Position numbers and translations under genes: made by a program. A model generated the notes under the pieces. It saw nothing but the letters and a program-made list of their open reading frames with translations. It did not search any database and was not told the DNA's origin. 64,000 nt of DNA from Hyperoplus lanceolatus (Eukaryota; Chordata; Actinopteri; Uranoscopiformes; Ammodytidae): assembly GCA_026929865.2 (NCBI GenBank), contig CM049404.1:30753501-30817500 (forward strand), in the 5' to 3' direction. The stretch's first letter is position 1; the number at the start of each line of letters is the position of its first letter. Below, piece after piece: positions 39,986-63,664 of the stretch.

Positions 39986-42100
39986 TTTTTTTTTGTTTTA
40001 ATTGTCTAAATAGGGGTGTTATCCTTGAATAAAGTGCTACTAAACTGATAAAGCCTGTGTGTGTGTGTGTGTGTGTGTGCGTGTGCGTGAAACGTTTATT
40101 AATCTAGTTTAATCCTAAATGTTGTATTGACAAAGAACCCTTCTTTTGGAAACTGTGCTATCAAAAAGGAATCAAGGTTTTAGGTGATTTCTAGGATGAG
40201 GGAAAAATTACATAATTAAAAAAAAAAAAAAAAAAAATTATCCCACCAAAATCAAACTGGTGTTATTAGCAGCTGAGGCGTCTGCTGATACAGACCTTTG
40301 GCTGTGCTTCTGTGGCTCCCCCTAGTGTGGACATCTGGCATCACACTTTAGACTATTTTGGAAAGGGTCATGAGGTCAGCAGCATATTATTCCATGCTGC
40401 CTCTTAACTCTGAGGAAGATTTGTCAGCCCTTAGATTGACATGGGAAGCTGATCTTAATATAGCTTCATCAGAGAACTGGAGTTTGATCCTTAAAGATTG
40501 AAAAATAATTCACTACAAGTAAAAATCCTGCATTCAAAACGTTATTCACGTAAAAGTATGTCTAAAGTAGGCCTATCATTGAACCCAATATAATCAAATC
40601 ATAATCAAATAAATAATGAAAACTCAACTCATCATGATGGAATGTTGTTTATTAATTTTCATGATAATGTCACATTAGATATTACTTTGATTTCATAATA
40701 CACAAATTTATATTTAGAATTTTTCCCACTGGCACTTTTATTTCATGTAACGTCTCATTTAATTTCAAACTTATTAACGTGAGAATTTATTTAATTTTGT
40801 TATTTCCTTATACAATGGTAGGGCCACCGCCCCTTTAACTTTCAGCCAATGCTGTAAACACCCTGATTGGCCAAAATGACCATACTTTTTAAGAATTTTT
40901 ATACAAAAAGGTTAAATGACAAATTTTTTACTCATAAAAAAAATATTTTAAAGATCTTCACAAGAATAAAGCTGATTTTAGTTAATGTGGTTAGTAACAT
41001 CCATTCAAATTTTATTTTTTCTATCTTAACAGTATCCTAAAGAAAGTTGGTTAAATATGAAATCCTTCAGTGTGGAGTCAGAGATTCTAGAGAATGCTTG
41101 TTGTCCAAATAACGTCAGAATCAGTGAATATCTCCTCGTGATCTGCTACCTGTTTGTACCGTGTGTGCGCTGAATTGACAAAAAGTGAATTTGACAACAA
41201 TTGTTCTCCAGAATCTCTAACTCCACCTCTAACTTGGTGATACAAAATCACTCGCCTACAGCGGCAACTCACGTCTACTATCAATATCGTCTAACTAATT
41301 TTTTTGTTTGTGGATGAATCAGTTAAAATATTAAGTGTCAGAAAAGTGATACATTTCCCACAGCCCAAGGAGATACATCTTCATATATTGCATTAATCAA
41401 CCACAACTCTTAAAACCAAATATATAAAATTCTTGATTATATATGACAAAAACACACAAAAAAACATCAAAATCCTCAAAACAGAGCCGGTCCTGGTCTC
41501 TGGGGGCCCATAGAAAATATATTTTTAAATGAACAAGAGACAAGAAGGAACTAAAGATTTCCTGAACAACATCTGGAGACGTTGGCACTCCCAGGATTCT
41601 GTGGTAAAAACAAAGTTTAACTAAATTAAGTAAAGTCAACTCAGACTGGGAGAAGTGTCTTCACAAGCTTTTCCTGGACAGTTTGCAGCACTGACAGTGA
41701 AATCAATGACATTTGGAGTTGGCTGCTTTAAGAAAGTGTTCTGATTGTTTTCATATTGTAGCAGACATAGATTTTGTCCTGACGTGCAATGTGCAATGGA
41801 ATTTACCGTGTCACTGCAAATGATTAGATTTACAAGTTTTGGACATTATGTCAGCTTTAACTTATAGTGGCATTCTATAGTAACACAAATTGGTTCAAAA
41901 CCGAATCCTGCTTAGGACCCCAAAAGTCTAGAGCCGGCTCTGCTTGGAAGATGTTACAGTTACATACTTATAATCACATGAGTAATATGACAGCTTAAGA
42001 ATAAAAAATATATAATTATTTTCTATATAAATTGAATATAGTCTGACGCACTACAGCTAGACAACAAAACAGTATTTGGACACAATCTTATATTAAAACT

Positions 42101-42653
42101 AGGGATGCTCCGATCAATCGGCCATCAATTTAAACCGTCTGATTTTCTCTCCAAATGACTGATCGGCCTTTAGCCGATTTGCTAAGGTAGATCTTTTAAT
42201 TATTAATAATGTGTTTTTATTAATCTTAAATAATTAAGACAATAAAATAATTTTTGTTCAGGTCTGCAGAATTATTGATACTATATTGCATCCTATTTAA
42301 CTGCAGCAGACACTCATTTTTAAGTTTGTTTTAATCGAAAGAGGTTACCAAATTTAATTAATTGTGTTACTAAGCATTTGTTTTACATTGCATAATAAAG
42401 TATAATATATCTGAAACTGAAAAATATTTGAAGTCCTATTCATGAGTTTAAATGATGTTTAATAAGGGGTAACCTTAATCTAAGTGACAGTTATATAAAT
42501 TAATCATAAGAGTAAAATAATATGTATTAGGCCATTCTAAGAAGAGACAGCCAATACAATTACATTACAAGTATCTACATTTTAAGTGGTAGCAAAGAAA
42601 AAAATATTAAAAATGTGTGTACTGATCGCCCAAAATCAAGATCGAGCATCCCT
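42101..42653. mobile_element. hAT-like MITE, copy A
   Basis: The left end AGGGATGCTCCGATCAATCG and the right end '…gatcgagcatccct' form an inverted pair. AAAACT lies on both sides (42095-42100, 42654-42659). It is present at the same site in copy B, so it predates the duplication. Confidence 0.7.
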
Positions 42654-43564
42654 AAAACTTCTATTCTATTAAATCTTAAATGAAGATTTTTTTTTTTTCA
42701 TAAAACCAAAGATCTTCATATCATTAAATTGTCTTCCCTTAATGGTGTTCAAATCTTATCCCACAGAATATTATCTCATCTTGTTTTATCTTACAGCGTT
42801 TTTATGGCAGTTGTCTAAAACAGCTCTAATAATTTATCTGACATATCATAATTACCTGAATGCTGCAGCTCTATTCTGACCCATTACATGAGGACTTTGA
42901 GGAATTAAAACAGACAAGAAATTCAACATTAAAGCCTCTGGAAACCTGCTCTAAAATAGTAAAAAAAAAAATTATATGATATCAAAGTTGGGTGTCTCAA
43001 TAAGCTTACAAAAATCTGATTGAAAATAAATGTTCATAAATATTATAAAAGTTAGTTAAAAAAAACAGTTTTACTGTCTAGAATATTTGACAGGACTGTG
43101 TGGGCGTGGCCGTATCAAACGGTCTCCATGGCAACAGTCATTGTTTTAATAGAATGTTTGGGCAGAGAACTGTCTGATTGGTTCAAAATACTTAATGTGC
43201 ATATAAGAACCAGAGCATAAGCCCCCTCATATAAACCAAATTTCTGTCAAATTTATCAAACTTAAACGACAACATCTTGAATTTGGATTGATGGATACGC
43301 CTTACTCTTTTCAGATGCTTTACTATCATAAAACTAACTCCCCACATTACATAGTTAGAAGGAATTAGAGGATTTGGGTTTACATGGGGTTTAAAAATCC
43401 TTTTTCTTCTCTTCCTTGGTGAAGAACTTTCCATCCGCCTGCTTCCTGAAGGACACTTTGACGTGTTCCAGCCCCTGATCCTTCAGCTTATGTTTGACCT
43501 GAGACACAGAACTCCTCAGCATTATCACTCACATAGATAAACCTTGATGCTAAATGCACTCTTG

Positions 43565-43793
43565 TTAAAGGGGGAGTCAGTTATTCTGGAGAACGCTTGT
43601 TGTGAAAATCACTTTTTTTTTCAAATCAATGAATATCTTCAGAATCCACTACCTGTCCAGATTGTGTGATCAAATTCAAAAGTCTAGGCTCTGTAAATAA
43701 AGCATAAAGGTCATGTTAACCCACCATAGTTGGGGGCAACGTGGTGTTTTCTGGACAACAGTTTACTCAAGAATTGCTGACTCACATCTTTAA
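43565..43793. mobile_element. Family-1 MITE in the last CTL-1 intron
   Basis: TTAAAGGGGGAGTCAG at the left, TTAA at the right. It is also present in copy B (60501-60722), so it was inserted before the duplication. Confidence 0.8.
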
Positions 43794-46702
43794 GTTACAA
43801 CCTGCAATCCCTGTTTCTGTTTTTCTACCTCTTCAGTTTTTTGTGCTGTTGTAACATGAAATGCTTTTCTTGAAATCAGTCATTCTTAATCTTTTTTAAA
43901 TGTTCCTTTTAAGAGTAATTTGGTTATTCTGTTTTAACGTAAAATAATAATCAAACCAAACATGATTTACCTGCTCCAAGAGGGCGTCCTTCATCGCTTC
44001 GTCATCCAGATCCTGACCGTCTTCTACGCGCAGATGCAATTTGAACACTTGCCTTGTCATCACGGGGGCTTTGGGGGCCAACTCTGCCAGGGAATATATG
44101 CCACAAATATAGATTCAAAAACCCATTTCCTGTGATTCTAATTTGCTTTAAAAAATTATTATTATTATTATTATTATTATTATGTTGGAATCATTTTTTT
44201 TAAATACATTTTTACAATAATGTCTATTTGTGCTAATTTCCCTCTGTTGTATTGTACCCTGTCATCTCTTTAATAATCTGGCTGTAGTGAAATGTCATTA
44301 TTGGTTCCGTGTTACATTGACAGCAAGTGTCCCATCAGCAGCTGATGGGAACATTAAACCTCCTTAGACAAACCACACGAGAAATTCACTAAACAGTAAA
44401 ACTAGAAACCAGAATAAATAATAAAATGGCTATTTAAATGTTGTAAGTTGTTATATTTATAATTCCATTTGATACTTTATTAGAAATAAGTGAGACTCCC
44501 TGTCGTGACACAGCAAAGAAAAAATGTATTATATTTTTTAAATCAATATATTCAGGGGGACTTTTTGTGCATATTTTTACATGGGAGGGTGGAGGGGGGT
44601 GTAGATACAGCCTTATGAGCTGTGAAAATGTGGTAATTAGATCGTCCATGTTTTGCATAGTGTTCAGCACACACCTATCATCTGCAGCTGATAACCAACG
44701 CATGCTTCCAAACAATTTCTGGAAAACCTACCAGACAGCTTATGTAATTTTAATTTGGAACATTTGATGCTAAAAATGTCCCAAATCTTTTATTTGAATA
44801 AATGGGCTACCTTTGGTTAGACTGTAGCAAATGAATGGCAGTCAGTGGTTACAGAAGTAGTTATTCCATTTTTAGCTTCGCTGAAGTCTGCAAACACACA
44901 ATCCTCCCCGGCGTCAGCAGGTTCACCCTCTCTCCAGAACCTAAATGAGGAATTACTCCGTCTCGACCACTTCCAGGAGTCTCTGAAAAGGCCGATCCAG
45001 ACTCCTGTTCCTGGAGGTACCAGCTCTTTCACCTTCTCGTTCTCTGCATTGTTTCTCACACTGACCAGGTCTGTGTAGTTTTCTCTGCAGGAGCTCTGAG
45101 CCTCAGTCCATGACATACTGCTGCTGGTGAGGTGATATGTGACATTCGACCCTGAAAATAGAGAGGCACTGTTATGTAGAGGGACCATAGCATACAATTT
45201 GTTTAAACAATTTTTTTTCCAGTCTTTCCAAATCAATAAGAAACAAAAATCCCTAAAATCTACACTCAGTACATGGTTACAGATTATTTTTCTCAAAAAA
45301 TTCAAAAATATTTATTTTGTAAAACTAAGGTGTTGTGTACAGAAACTGTATGAAAAGTGTTACACATATAATGTTAGTATGTTTCACTGATTAATACATC
45401 AAAGTCTAACGTGTCAAAGAGAAGGAGAGAAGTGGAGAAATGGAAGATCAAGAAACTAAACTCATGTTATATGGTGTGACTTAATATCCTCACCTTGGAC
45501 ATCACAGCAGACTGCCTTATAGAGTCCGCTACATGATGGGTGGCTCCACAGTCCATCATTCCCCATCAGTCCGCAGTATTTTCCACTGCCTATTCCGGTT
45601 GGTTCTCCGGTCGACCAGTTTCTAAACTCCATCTCTCCGTGTTTGTAGAAACCACTGTTTGGCAGTGACCACATCCAGCTGAACATGTCAGTATGGTGCA
45701 GTCCTATCCAGGCAACCTGAAAGCAATATTTGATTGTGTTACTTTAGCCTCAACTGTTATATGAAGCTGAAACAGATGCCTATAGAGGACAAGAATACTC
45801 CAAAAAGGGGCTGGAGCTTGAAACTGTGCAAACAGACAAACTGTCTTCATCAAAATGGACAAAGACATACCTTAAATCTACAAATACAAATCAAATACTC
45901 ACATATACAACTAGGTCAATACACATACCCATATATACACATCATTATGATGGTGGAAAAGAAATGGGAAGATGGAGCAGCAAATGCAATAAACAAAATG
46001 AGATTAAAAGGTGCTAGGATACAAAGATAATGAGAAAGATGATAAAGAGACGGCTTCACATGAACGTAAGTCTATAAAAATGTGTTTTAAGAAGTCAATC
46101 CAAAGAACTTACTGATTGAGCAAGATTTATCTTGGTTTTTTGTATTCTTTTGTACTTTTGTATTCATTTAATCATTAGTTTTTTTGTGTGGATAAAACTG
46201 GATCATTTGAACTCCAACATTGATTTAAATGGAACCAGTTTTACGACAACAAGCTAAAAAGGTTGTGAACCAGCAGGGGTTAAATAACATATTTGATCAA
46301 AAAGTAAAGGACAAAGTAAGTCTAAATGTTACTGAAGTACAGTCTATCTACATTAACTTTACTCAACATAATTAAAATAGATCTTCGAAATCTCAGAGAG
46401 AGAATTTACATGTCTCCCTTTACAATTGTCTTTTCAAGTTCAGGATTTTCAAAAAATATTTGAAATGTCAGAGAGAGACAAGTGAACTTACATCTGTAAG
46501 TGTCATGTTGATCAGGCTGTTCAGGCTGTTCACATCCTCCATGTTGTCTATAGTTGCCAGGTCGCGTAGTGTTCTCTGCAGTAACTCTGCGCTTCAGCCC
46601 AGTTCTTATGTTCATTGAAAACATGGAACTGACTTAACAACATGTGACGAGACAGCACACAGCCCTGTAGAGACAGACATGAATAATTATAAAATATAGG
46701 CA

Positions 46703-56000: not shown

Positions 56001-57588
56001 AGAAGGCGGGTCTAACTCCTGATTGGCTGGCTAACTAGGCCAACTAATACTCATCTGACTCTTTGATTTACAGGTGAATTAATGAATCAAGCTATATTAA
56101 AAAGCTACAGAATATAGAATAGAGATTAAAGGCATTTTAATATTTTCCATTAGGCCTATCTATTTGATCTGTTTTTCTGACAATATTTAAAATGAAATCG
56201 CAATGTTTTTGTTACTGATTAGTTACTAACTACTTTAAATTGGTTCTTATTTAAAGCCATTTGACCATTTCAATAAGTTATTGCTTATTATTGCTAACTT
56301 GCTTCTTGTACTTGAAAAAATTTTTTTTAATTGTCTAAATGGGGGCATCATCCTTGAATAAAGTGCTACTTATATACTAATAATACTAATACTGCCTATG
56401 TGTGTTGCGTTTATTAACGGGTTGTTCTTGAACGCAGCTCTAACTACTAATAGAAACCCATCATAAAAGCGGGGAAAAAATATTTATATATATATATATT
56501 TATTTCATTAAGCTATCTTCATTTACATGCAGGAATCTGGTTTAATCCTAAACTTTGTATTGACCAATAACCCTTATTCTGGAAACTGTGCTATCAAAAA
56601 GGAATCAAGGTTTTAGGTGATTTCTAGGATGAGGGAAAAATTACATAATTAAAAAAAAAAAAAAAAAAAATTATCCCACCAAAATCAAACTGGTGTTATT
56701 AGCAGCTGAGGCGTCTGCTGATACAGACCTTTGGCTGTGCTTCTGTGGCTCCCTCTAGTGTGGACATCTGGCATCGCACATTAGACTGTTTTGGAAAGGG
56801 TCATGAGGTCAGCAGCATATTATTGCTTTGTCAGAGAACTGGAGTTTGATCCTTAAAGATTCAAAAAAGATGTTGAGAGAACTGAAAACAAGACATATTT
56901 AATTATTTAAAACATTGCATTGAGTCCATTGGACCCCATCCAGGTTACACAGAGCAGGGTTGAGGGAGGATGCAGGGTGTTGGAGGTGCACTGTGAATAA
57001 TGGTACTCTGGTTCAGAGGCTATGGGGATGCCCAAAAGTACTGTTGGAATTTTCAAAGTAGGCCTATCATTGAACCCAATATAATCAAATCATAATAAAA
57101 TTAAAAATTAAAACTCAACTCATCATGATGGAATGTTGTTTATTAATTTTCATGAGAATGTTACATTAGATATTACTTTGATTTCATAATACACAAATTT
57201 ATATTTAGAATTTTTCCCACTGGCACTTTTATTTCATGTAACGTCTCATTTAATTTCAAACTTATTAACGTGACAATTTATTGAATTTTAGTTATTTCCT
57301 TATACAATGGTAGGGTCACCGCCCCTTTAACTTTCAGCCAATGCTGTAAACACCCTGATTGGCCAAAATGGCCAAAAGGGGAGAGGCTGAATTATACTTA
57401 TGAAGAATTTTTATACTAAAAGGTTAAATGACAAATTTTTTACTCATAAAAAAAACTATTTTAAAGATCTTCACAAGAATAAAGCTGATTTAGTAAATGT
57501 GGTTAGTAACATCCATTCAAATTTTATTTTTTCTATCTTAACAGTATCCTAAAGAAAGTTGGTTAAATATGAAATCCTTCAGTGTGGA

Positions 57589-58400
57589 GTCAGAGATTCT
57601 AGAGAATGCTTGTTGTCCAAATAACGTCAAAATCAGTGAATATCTCCTCGTGATCTGCTACCTGTTCGTACCGTGTGTGCGCTGAATTGACAAAAAGTGA
57701 ATTTGACAACAATTGTTCTCCAGAATCTCTAACTCCACCTCTAACTTGGTGATACAAAATCACTCGCCTACAGCGGCAACTCACGTCTACTATCAATATC
57801 GTCTAACTAATTTTTTTGTTTGTAAATTAATCAGTTAAAATATTAAGTGTCAGAAAAGTGATACATTTCCCACAGCCCAAGGAGATACATCTTCATATAT
57901 TGCATTAATCAACCACAACTCTTAAAACCAAAGATATTAAATTCATGATTATATATGACAAAAACACACAAAAAAAACAATCAAAATCCTCTACACAGTC
58001 AGAGATTCTGGAGAACGCTTGTTGTCCAAATAACGTCAAACTCAGTGAATATCTCCTCACGATCTGCTACCTGTTCCTACCATGTATGCGCTGATTTTGA
58101 CAAAAGGTTTTTTTGTTCTAAGTGTTCTCCAGAATCTCTGACTCAACCTTTAACTTGGTGATAGAAAATAAATAACTCGTTACACATATATCACGGCAAC
58201 TCACGTCTACTATCAATATCGTCTAACTAATTTTTTTGTTTGTAAGTTAATCAGTTAAAATATTAAGTGTCAGAAAAGTGATACATTTCCCACAGCCCAA
58301 GGAGATACATTTTCATATATTGCATTAATCAACCACAACTCTTAAAACCAAATATATAAAATTCATAATTATATGACAAAAACACACAAAAAAGCATCAA
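57589..58400. repeat. Local tandem duplication of about 410 bp in copy B
   Basis: 'gtcagagattct(a/g)gagaa(t/c)gc…' starts at 57589 and again at 57999. Both units continue through 'caactcacgtctactatcaa' and 'gcccaaggagatacat'. Copy A has one unit (41088 onward). Confidence 0.85.
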
Positions 58401-59022
58401 AATCCTCAAAGCAGAGCCGGCCCTGGTCTCTGGGGGCCCATAGAAAATATATTTTTAAATGAACACGAGACAAGAAGGAACTAAAGATTTCCTGAACAAC
58501 ATTTGGAGACGTTGGCACTCCCAGGATTCTGTGGTAAAAACAAAGTTAAACTAAATTAAGTAAAGTCAACTCAGACTGGGAGAAGTGTCTTCACAAGCTT
58601 TTCCTGGACAGTTTGCAGCACTGACAGTGAAATCAATGACATTTGGAGTTGGCTGCTTTAAGAAAGTGCTCTAATTGTTTTCATATTGTAGCAGACATAG
58701 ATTTTGTCCTGACGTGCAATGGAATTTACCGTGTCACTACAAATGATTAGATTTACAAGTTTGGACCTTATGTCAGCTTTAACTCATATTGGTATTTTAT
58801 ATTAACACAAATTGGTTCAAACCGAATCCTGCTTAGGGCCCCAAAAGTCTAGAGCCGGCTCTGCTTGGAAGATGTTACAGTTACATACTTATAATCACAT
58901 GAGTAACATGAACAGCTTAAGAATAAAACATATAATTATTTTCTATATAAATTGAATATAGTCTGACACACTACAGCTAGACAACAAAACAGTATTTGGA
59001 CACAATCTTATATATAAAAACT

Positions 59023-59584
59023 AGGGATGCTCCGATCAATCGGCCACCGATTTAAACCGTCTGATTTTCTCTCCAAATAACTGATCGGCTCTTTAGCCGA
59101 TTTGCAAAGGCAGATCTTTTAATTATTAATAATGTGTTTTTATTAATCTTAAATAATTAAGACAATAAAATAATTTTTGTTCAGGTCTGCAGAATTATTG
59201 ATACTGTATTGCATCCTATTTAACTGCAGCAGACACTCATTTTTAAGTTTGTTTTAATCGAAAGAGGTTACCAAATTGAATTAATTGTGTTACTAAGCAT
59301 TTGTTTTATATTGCATAATAAAGTATAATATATCTGAAACTGAAAAATATTTGGAGGCCTATTCATGAGTTTAATGAGTGTTTAATAAGGGGCAACCTTA
59401 ATCTAAGTGACAGTTATATAAATTAATCCTAAGAGTAAAATAATATATATATAAATGTATTAGGCCATTTTAAGAAGAGGCAGCCAATACAATTACATTA
59501 CAAGTATCTACATTTTAAATAGCAAAGAAAAAATATTAAAAATCGGTACCGGGATCGGCCACAAATTGAGATCGGAGCATCCCT
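59023..59584. mobile_element. hAT-like MITE, copy B
   Basis: AGGGATGCTCCGATCAATCG at the left, inverse 'gatcggagcatccct' at the right; same insertion as 42101-42653. Confidence 0.7.
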
Positions 59585-60323
59585 TAAACTTCTATTCTAC
59601 TTAATCTTAAATGAAGATTTTTTTCTCATGAAACCAAAGATCTTCATATCATTAAATTGTCTTCCCTTAATGGTGTTCAAATCTTATCCCACAGTATGTT
59701 ATCTCATCTTGTTTTATCTTACAGCGTTTTTATGGCAGTTGTCTAAAACAGCCCTAATAATTTATCTGACATATCATAATTACCTGAATTCTGCAGCTCT
59801 ATTCTGACCCATTACATGAGGACTTTGAGGAATTAAAGCAGACACAGAGATTCAACATTAAAGCCTCTGGAAACCTGGTCTAAAATAGTAAAAATCTATA
59901 TATTTATTATATTAAAGTTGGGTATGTCAATAAGCTTTTACAAAAATCAGATTGAAAATAAATGTTCATAAATATTATAAAAGTTGGTTAAAAAAAAACA
60001 GTTTTACTGTCTAGAATATTTGACAGGACTGTGTGGGCGTGGCCGTATCAAATGGTCTCCATGGCAACAGTGATTGTTTTAATAGAATGTTTGCGCAGAG
60101 AACTGTCCTGATTGGTTCAAAATAATATTTGTATAATAAGAACCAGAGCATAAGCCCCCTCATATAAACCAAATTTCTGTAAAATTTATCAAACTTAAAC
60201 GACAATATCTTACATTTGGATTGATGGATACGCCTTACTCTTTTCAGATGCTTTACTATCATAAAACTAACTCCCCACATTATAGAGTTAGAAGGAATTA
60301 GTGGATTTGGGTTTACAGGGGGT

Positions 60324-63082
60324 TTAAAACTCATCCTTTTTCTTCTCTTCCTTGGTGAAGAACTTTCCATCCGCCTGCTTCCTGAAGGACACTTTGACGT
60401 GTTCAAGGTTGTGATCCTTCAGCTTCTGTTTGACCTGAGACACAAAACTCCTCAGCATTATCACTCACATAGATGAACCTTGATGCTAAATGCACTCTTG
60501 TTAAAGGGGGAGTCAGTGATTCTGGAGAACGCTTGTTGTGAAAATCACTTTTTTTTTCAAATCAATGAATATCTTCAGAATCCACTACCTGTCCATTGTG
60601 TGTTCACCCAAAAGTCTAGGCTCTGTAAATATGTTTACAAAGGTCATGTTAACCCACCATAGCTAGCAACGTGGTGTTTTCTGACAACAAGCTTACTCAA
60701 GAATTGCTGACTCCACCTTTAAGTTACAACCTGCAATCCCTGTTTCTGTTTTTCTACCTCTTCAGTTTTTTGTGCTGTTGTAACATGAAATGCTTTTCTT
60801 GAAATCAATCATTCTTAATCTTTTTTTAAATGTTCCTTTTAAGAGTAATTAGGTTATTCTGTTTTAACGTAAAATAATAATAAAATCAAACATGGTTTAC
60901 CTGCTCCAAGAGGGCGTCCTTCATCGCTTCGTCATCCAGATCCTGACCGTCTTCTACGCGCAGATGCAATTTGAACACTTGCCTTGTCATCACGGGGGCT
61001 TTGGGGGCCAACTCTGCCAGGGAATATATGCCACAAATATAGATTCAAAAACCCATTTCCTGTGATTCTAATTTGCTTTAAAAAATTATTATTATCATTA
61101 TTATTATTATTATGTTGGAATCATTTTTTTTAAATACATTTTTAACAATAATGTCTATTTCTGCTGTTTTCCCCCTGTAGTATTGTACCCTGTCATCTCT
61201 TTAATAATCTGGCTGTAGTGAAATGTTATTATTGGTTCCGTGTTACAATAATAAGTGTCCCATCAACAGCTGATGGGAACTTTAGACTCCTTAGACAAAC
61301 CACACGCAGAAATGCACTAAACAGTAAAACTTGAATCAGTATATGGCAATTTAAATGTAGATTTATTTATAATTCCATTTGATAATTAGAAATAAGTGTG
61401 AATGTCTGTCGTGACATAGCAAAGAAAAAAATATTATATTTTTTACATCAATATATTCAGGGGATAATGTGGTATGTAGATCGTCCATGTGTTGCATATT
61501 TTTCAGCACACACCTATAATCTGCAGCTGATAACCACTGCATTCTCCCAAACAATATCAGGAAAACCATCCAGACTGCTCAAGAGTATTTTTAATTTGGG
61601 ACATCTTGATGCTAAAACAAACCTAAATCTAAATGTTATTTGAATGAATGGGTTACCTCCGGTTAGACTGTAGCAAATGAATGGGTAGTTGTTGCCACAT
61701 TCCCTGTCATACCATCTTCCAGAGTCACCAAAGTTTGCTAACACACAATCCTCCCCGGTCCTGTTAGAAGGTTCACCCGTTGACCAGAACCTGAATGAGG
61801 AATTACTTCCGTCCGACCTCTTCCAGGAGTCTTTGAGAAGGCCGATCCAGACATCCTGAAACTAATATTTGATTGTGTTACTTTAGCCTCAACTGTCATA
61901 TGAAGCTAAAACAGACAAAACTTTGTAAACAGACATATTAACTTTGTCTTCATCAAAATGGACAAAGACATAAGGCATCATCAAAACAAAAGGACACAGA
62001 CATACCTTTAAAAAACAATAGATCACAAAGTGCTTTGACATGATAAATAGGAGCAAATACACATAAACATTAAGTCAATAGACATCATTGTGATGGTGAG
62101 AAAGAAAAGGGAAGATGGAGCCGTAAATGCAATAAACAAAATGAGATTTCAAGATGCTAGGATACAAAGACAATGAGAAAGACGATAAAGAGATGGCCTC
62201 ACGTGAACCCAACACTATACAAATGTGTTTTAAGAATTGATTTAAAAGCACTCACTGATTCAGCCAGATTTATCTCCGTTTTCTGTATTGTATTTGTATA
62301 TTTGTTTTAATTTTCTCTAATCATTAGTTTTTTTGTGTGAGTGGATAAAACTGATCATTTCAACTCTAACACTGATTTAAATGGAACCAGTTTAAATGTA
62401 AGAGAATAAAAGGGTTGTGAACCAGCAGGGGTTAAATGACATATTCAATCAACAAAAAAGTAAAGGACAAGTACGTCTAAATGTTACTGAAGTACAGTCT
62501 ATCTACTTTAACTTTACTCAAACATAAAAAAGAAAAATCTTTTAAATGTCAGAGAAAGAGAGACAAGTGAACTTACATCTCCCACTGTACGTGTCATGTT
62601 GTTCAGGATGTTCATATCCTCCATGTTGTCTACAGTTGCCAGGTCTGTGTAGTGTTCTCTGCAGTAACTCTGCGCTTCAGTCCAGGTCTTCAGTTCATTA
62701 AAAACATGGAACTGACGTGCAGCATGTGAGGAGACAGCACACAGCCCTGTAGAGACAGACATGAATAATGATACAATGTCAATGTCAATATTAAATAACC
62801 AAATAATAGTCTTGGCTTTAGGTCTCAGTGTATTTAGGTTAGATTGGTCATTTGTTCGCCTTCATTAATTTCCAGTTTAATATAGTGTGTGGCTTTCTAC
62901 ATGTCCACGTTGATGCAGGTTGTTGGTTGAACAGGTGTTATAAAGTTTGAGCTTTTTTCTTTTGAAGGTTTTATTGCACTCAGGCTACTAACGAGCGGAG
63001 TTCACGTCAGCTGGGTAACTTTAATCTATAGGTTATCTTTCATCACTCTTCTGTGACTGTGACTGGAGCCCGACGGCGACTC

Positions 63083-63231: not shown

Positions 63232-63664
63232 GGACAGAGAGATTCTGCAGAATAACTTTTATGTGTTATTTGTGATGTGAAATTAATAATTGCGTGTCTC
63301 CAGAACATATTTAAATAATTTTCAAAACTTTATTTATATAAATATATATAAAAAAAGGTTTTCGTTGAATGATTTTTCCTAAATGGTTAAGATTTACTAA
63401 CCAGTTACATGTTTACACCTACTGTCAAATTTTGAAAGTTGTTTTTGTGACCTGCTGTTACTAGCATTTCCAATAAGGATGTCTTGAAAGTATAATATTA
63501 TAATATATACAACAATAAAAACAAATAGCTACTAATGAAAATATTTTTTCTAAGTATTGTACATCTGAATGTATAGTGTCTCACAATACATTATATTAAA
63601 ACATTTATAAATATATAAAACACTTACCTGAAGCCACGACGATGCTCAGAAGAACCTTCTCCAT
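60324..63664 (-). CDS. Secreted C-type lectin, chimeric single domain (CTL-2)
   Basis: Exons in transcript order: 63628-63664, 62577-62746, 61657-61855, 60901-61013, 60324-60434; 630 nt, 209 residues plus stop. Signal peptide at residues 1-19 (MEKVLLSIVVASGLCAVSS). The C-type lectin domain spans about 22-134: WTEAQSYC at 34-41, VWIGL at 71-75, GEPSNRTGEDC at 96-106, RWYDREC at 116-122, FIC at 128-130. Four cysteines (41, 106, 122, 130) give the two standard disulphides. The calcium/sugar motif EPN is EPS and WND is WYD, so classical mannose binding is doubtful. Possible N-glycosylation at 62, 87 and 100. A tail of about 75 residues, rich in K, D and E, ends KKKDEF. Family role: secreted glycan recognition in defence. 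Exon 3 joins two ancestral domains (see findings). Confidence 0.92.
60501..60722. mobile_element. Family-1 MITE in the last CTL-2 intron
   Basis: TTAAAGGGGGAGTCAGTGAT at the left and the inverse plus TTAA at the right; same insertion as 43565-43793. Confidence 0.85.
63084..63228. repeat. Opposed (GT)n and (AC)n microsatellites
   Basis: (GT)n at 63084-63131 and (AC)n at 63161-63228 are separated by about 29 bp, so the strand is self-complementary and can form a long hairpin. Lies in CTL-2 intron 1. Confidence 0.95.

Follow-up and report, generated by a model that had tools for sequence, protein, structure and literature searches.

A single-domain lectin gene of Hyperoplus lanceolatus, very probably derived from a dual-CTLD gene by in-register recombination at the WIGL codons

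The window analyzed here is a stretch of 64,000 nt from Hyperoplus lanceolatus (assembly GCA_026929865.2, contig CM049404.1, positions 30,753,501-30,817,500). Two related lectin loci, CTL-1 and CTL-2, lie in it on the minus strand. CTL-2 is an intact five-exon model; in the frame spliced from the DNA it comprises 209 codons followed by TAA, and all four introns start with GT and end with AG. Its features are listed below, the bounds of exon 3 being those predicted originally (61855-61657) and borne out by the spliced model.

63628..63664, minus strand: CTL-2 exon 1, with the start codon and the first part of the signal peptide; the same exon is found in relatives
62577..62746, minus strand: CTL-2 exon 2, with the rest of the signal peptide and the N-half of the lectin domain, which derives from domain 1
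61856..62576, minus strand: CTL-2 intron 2, equivalent to the domain-1 intron, acceptor included; best full-length alignment to L043 and L041
61657..61855, minus strand: CTL-2 exon 3, opening with the codon GAT as a domain-1 exon 3 does, then the C-half of domain 2
61842..61852, minus strand: fusion point, GTCTGGATCGG (V-W-I-G codons); the break lies inside or at the edge of this stretch
60901..61013, minus strand: CTL-2 exon 4, conserved tail exon of the family; identical in CTL-1
60324..60434, minus strand: CTL-2 exon 5, last coding exon, with the TAA stop

The joined domain of CTL-2 gave one continuous match to the Pfam profile Lectin_C (PF00059), covering profile positions 2-106 of 107 with 68.5 bits (curated cut-off 22.6 bits); six domains of three two-domain relatives scored 62.5-87.1 bits. 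The spliced protein contains the VWIGL motif and four conserved cysteines, the pairing of which is predicted. The best three PDB matches listed were of mannose-receptor type and aligned over the join with small gaps at most. Inspected by eye, the 209 amino acids hold no long hydrophobic stretch beyond the signal peptide. CTL-2 thus has one CTLD, and its relatives have two. The reading frame, the splice sites and the full-length Pfam match agree with the original prediction that frame, acceptor and all four cysteines survive in an intact domain. A second AG lies six bases upstream of the exon 3 acceptor (TTAG/TTTCAG/GAT, 61856-61865) and is absent from the 11 other exon 3 starts compared; either acceptor keeps the frame, the difference being the addition or omission of Phe-Gln.

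In a base-by-base alignment, CTL-1 and CTL-2 were colinear over exon 2, intron 2, the 3' half of the lectin domain, the next intron and the tail exon. A single large clean gap was present in CTL-2 at the start of exon 3, and smaller indels were seen in the introns. The tryptophan codons of the two WIGL motifs in CTL-1 are located at 45710 and 44999, 711 bases apart, and CTL-2 has one such codon, at 61849, in their place. The exact ends of the missing segment are uncertain by several bases because the two sites look alike. The following features of CTL-1 are relevant to this comparison:

45003..45713, minus strand: CTL-1 segment absent from CTL-2, 711 bases comprising the C-half of domain 1, intron 3 and the N-half of domain 2
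46492..46664, minus strand: CTL-1 exon 2, two opposite frameshifts with stop codons in between
44811..45151, minus strand: CTL-1 exon 4 (domain 2), frame lost past the second conserved cysteine

The alignment had been proposed as a check of the claim that the C-half of domain 1, one intron and the N-half of domain 2 were lost, and the one large gap of 711 bases within colinear flanks agrees with that claim. Exon 3 of CTL-2 does correspond to the second half of CTL-1 exon 4, as claimed, but the correspondence starts at 45002 (GTC TGG) and not at 45037. CTL-1 had also been treated as an intact two-domain gene, and here the claim failed, as exons 2 and 4 both carry frame lesions. CTL-1 looks like a pseudogene unless these lesions are assembly errors.

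Further members of the family were located on C10, C14, C15, C20 and C24 by a DNA search with CTL-1 of the window's own genome (807 Mb). We examined 14 family loci, consisting of CTL-1, CTL-2 and 12 fetched loci (L039-L050). Another locus, L051, was left out; it has a 151-base exon-2-like match but no lectin exon by tblastn. All of the 14 except CTL-2 have the two-domain order. Within the stretches fetched, tblastn placed the C-half of domain 1 and exon 4 in 12 of 12 loci, and exon 2 as well in 11 of them.

The most serious alternative is that the chimera, though genuine at the DNA level, has decayed or is not expressed, as appears to be the case for CTL-1. We regard this as possible though unlikely. 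Frameshifts or stops are present in CTL-1 and L050, and the frame is split in exon 4 of L044 and in exon 3 of L043 and L046; lesions, whether from decay or from base errors, are thus frequent in the family. The CTL-2 model, on the other hand, is free of lesions over its whole coding length and its four introns, its domain scores like those of three relatives, and L039 and L043 match the full 336 bases 5' of its ATG at 90-91%. The intactness of CTL-2 could also reflect a young fusion.

The position of the break was compared in the 11 loci in which both WIGL sites are readable. In the relatives, GTC TGG ATC GG or a slightly different sequence comes after a single opening codon of exon 3; the exon 4 sequence is GTC TGG ATC GGC, ATC being replaced by ATT in L050. 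CTL-2 reads cag/GAT GTC TGG ATC GGC, that is, the opening codon of exon 3, the 11-mer and then exon 4. The opening codon is GAT in L050, as in CTL-2, and NAT in L039, L040, L041 and L048. Five of the 11 loci (L040, L042, L043, L046 and L048) have GTCTGGATCGG in register in both exons, and in these five it is also the longest word common to the compared stretches of exon 3 and exon 4. The other six, CTL-1 included, have an in-register match of 6-9 bases, and their longest common word lies elsewhere or is tied. A break in register at the WIGL codons keeps the acceptor, the frame and the four cysteines without repair. The original prediction placed the break within a few bases of the acceptor; its actual place is the V-W-I-G codons, and no lucky match at the acceptor is involved.

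It is improbable that the break instead fell outside the WIGL register, by way of CAGG words in CTL-1 (45719-45716 and 45007-45004), with the frame regained later. Such words do exist both at the acceptor (cag/g) and in CTL-1 exon 4 (acagga). A join through them yields CAG/GAGTCTGG, which is out of frame and one base short of the CAG/GATGTCTGG found in CTL-2. No extra base is needed for the in-register join, since L039, L040 and L048 open exon 3 with NATGTCTGG. The CAGG reading also has to reckon with how rarely random breaks in exon 3 and exon 4 fall exactly in register, which by our computation is the case for 0.3% of pairs.

Separate protein trees of the two halves, which had likewise been proposed as a check, were built from loci of the same genome. 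In the N-half tree CTL-2 sided with 10 domain-1 rows against 12 domain-2 rows, and in the C-half tree with 13 domain-2 rows against 12 domain-1 rows; each split had 100/100 support, with CTL-2 on opposite sides. Within the clades the trees were poorly resolved, and the bootstrap of the N-half tree had not yet converged; they therefore name no parent. When CTL-2 was the query, 11 of the 13 two-domain loci had a match that stopped at base 942, and all 13 had another, separate match that began at 923-929. Among the best candidates scored, the CTL-2 junction pattern had one exact match in the genome, CTL-2 itself, and the only other match within three mismatches was the exon 3 start of the two-domain locus L046; no other single-domain fusion was seen among these candidates. 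The opposite 100/100 splits and the single exact junction match show that the joining of the halves is not due to chance. Alignment and trees thus agree with the original view of CTL-2 as a chimera of a domain-1 N-half and a domain-2 C-half. The tail exon was matched at 11 places among the best candidates scored, namely CTL-1, CTL-2, L042, L044-L049, C10:31320007 and C10:31355708, of which the last two are outside the 14 loci examined.

Within this genome, CTL-2 shares exons, introns and tail with the two-domain loci, which points to descent from dual-CTLD genes. As 13 of 14 loci are two-domain and the junction was matched exactly once, the two-domain state is likely to be ancestral and CTL-2 derived. 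The reverse order, an ancestral single-domain form with the extra segment added later in CTL-1 and the remaining copies, is very improbable. Nothing beyond its logical possibility was found in this genome, and no ancestral single-domain gene, which the original prediction had named as the case that would overturn it, was found among the 14 family loci. Besides the locus count, the trees separate domain 1 from domain 2 as two deep clades, from each of which CTL-2 takes one half. In addition, the Fugu and zebrafish members of a similar group are described as dual-CTLD, with one triple member in Fugu (PMC514892). Equally slight is the chance of an assembly artefact joining two copies at the common 11-mer, for which the repetitive family and the 527 contigs of the assembly might speak, because the exon 3 loop of CTL-2 is only 69-77% identical, over 66-120 bases, to 12 of the 13 other loci and is matched by L046 in a 25-base piece alone, so that no fetched copy could be its source.

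We therefore consider it highly probable that CTL-2 is a derived single-domain member of the fish secreted-type dual-CTLD lectins, made by in-register recombination at the WIGL codons. The ancestor would have carried GTCTGGATCGG, or nearly so, at both WIGL sites, and recombination between these sites may have been a deletion inside one gene or an unequal exchange between two. One domain's worth of sequence would have been removed, 711 bases if judged by CTL-1; the corresponding length is 497-747 bases in the six most compact of ten relatives measured. Since the two domains are homologous, an in-register break would have left the acceptor, the reading frame and all four cysteines in place.

The nearest relative changes along CTL-2. 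The 336 bases 5' of the ATG are closest to L043 and L039, as given above. Around exon 1 the whole 161 bases are matched by L043 and L041 at 93-94%, and CTL-1 is closest over 79-123 bases of this region (97-98%). For exon 2 the nearest locus is L040 (94%). Intron 2 matches L040, L041 and L043 at 88-90% in its first third and L043 at 94% in its second. In the 190 bases that directly follow exon 3, identity to L039 is 95%. CTL-1 becomes the nearest locus at about 61237 and remains so to the end of the tail exon (96-100%); beyond that exon CTL-1 has 93-95% identity and L042 97% in one block. Exchange or conversion is, on these comparisons, evidently common among the copies, and conversion of this kind blurs the parent. 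Each side of the join gave a mixed signal as to its nearest relative; relatedness therefore does not separate a loss inside one gene from an unequal exchange.

CTL-1 was also considered as the parent of CTL-2 and was rejected for most of the lectin part, because other loci are the closer matches to the promoter, exon 2 and intron 2. The window further contains a tandem duplication (40101-44558 / 56534-61463) that covers the lectin tails and the 3' flanks at 92-96% identity. In the lectin parts the identity is lower, about 80%, which marks a conversion or exchange boundary near 61240-61460.

The protein predicted from CTL-2 would carry the variable loop of domain 2 on the conserved half of domain 1, followed by the family tail. 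CTL-2 keeps the variable loop of domain 2, and that of domain 1 has been dropped. Over 13 loci, pN/pS in the C-half of domain 2 was 0.38 (codon bootstrap 0.07-0.84) in the first 25 codons, a conserved framework, and 1.67 (codon bootstrap 1.20-2.34) in the next 35; the values were computed as context only, and the 13 copies are not independent. A ratio of 1.67 would fit diversifying selection acting on a binding surface. The excess of amino-acid change maps to 61657-61780 in CTL-2 and to the same part of exon 4 in L039-L050. Canonical Ca2+-dependent sugar-binding CTLDs have an EPN or QPD motif plus WND. CTL-2 departs from this pattern with EPS and WYD, and domain 2 of L042 has EPN and WND. With these substitutions, calcium-dependent sugar binding by CTL-2 is uncertain, although a variant site may still bind. 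Judged from its sequence, the product is a predicted secreted lectin-like protein with one binding site, compared to two in its relatives.

Tandem homologous domains are known to contract by in-register recombination, as in the kringle IV repeats of apolipoprotein(a). There, as is proposed for CTL-2, homologous repeats in one gene recombine to give a hybrid repeat with the frame kept. The repeats behind CTL-2 differ in being old and divergent, and they share only a short identical stretch where the break lies, within a coding motif (in the relatives, 11 bases at most). Soluble dual-CTLD proteins of fish, group F1 / FDC, have been described in Fugu (Zelensky and Gready 2004, PMC514892); according to that description they are soluble and mannose-receptor-like, have two CTLDs, occur in several copies and evolve fast. 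Their layout is like that of the two-domain relatives of CTL-2, a likeness drawn from the description of the group and not from Fugu sequences. Members of group F1 / FDC are described with two or three CTLDs, whereas CTL-2 has one, made from halves of two. In its final layout, soluble with one CTLD, CTL-2 is like the single-CTLD soluble fish lectins and antifreeze-like proteins of the same account (PMC514892), for which an intron downstream of the WIGL motif is described. Unlike these, CTL-2 has its intron just upstream of WIGL, as in its two-domain relatives, and on the intron position described for the former its single-CTLD layout was therefore reached by domain loss. In the literature searched, we found no half-domain fusion in the lectin family of CTL-2.

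The process is of a known kind; the instance here is the origin of a single-domain lectin from a dual-CTLD one at the WIGL codons. CTL-2 offers a clean and readable single-step route from a two-domain protein to a complete single-domain one. With a conserved fold motif as the recombination site the join is automatically in register, and the break separates a conserved half from a half with a fast-changing binding loop. The join suggests that scaffold and binding surface can be re-paired simply in an immune-type gene family, and the five relatives with the 11-mer in both domains predict where further fusions should occur. It is a tentative and rather doubtful extension that the family has a standing site of recombination in GTCTGGATCGG at the WIGL codons, where relatives with this word in both domains would repeatedly lose or exchange half-domains. 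If it were true, new pairings of conserved and binding halves should be found in other individuals or species as well.

In L045 the domain-1 binding loop is lengthened by an insert in exon 3 that keeps the frame and is rich in K, E, D and S. L050 (C14:6937500-6947000) is a two-domain locus in which the exon for the C-half of domain 1 is present twice, and it has stops in exon 4.
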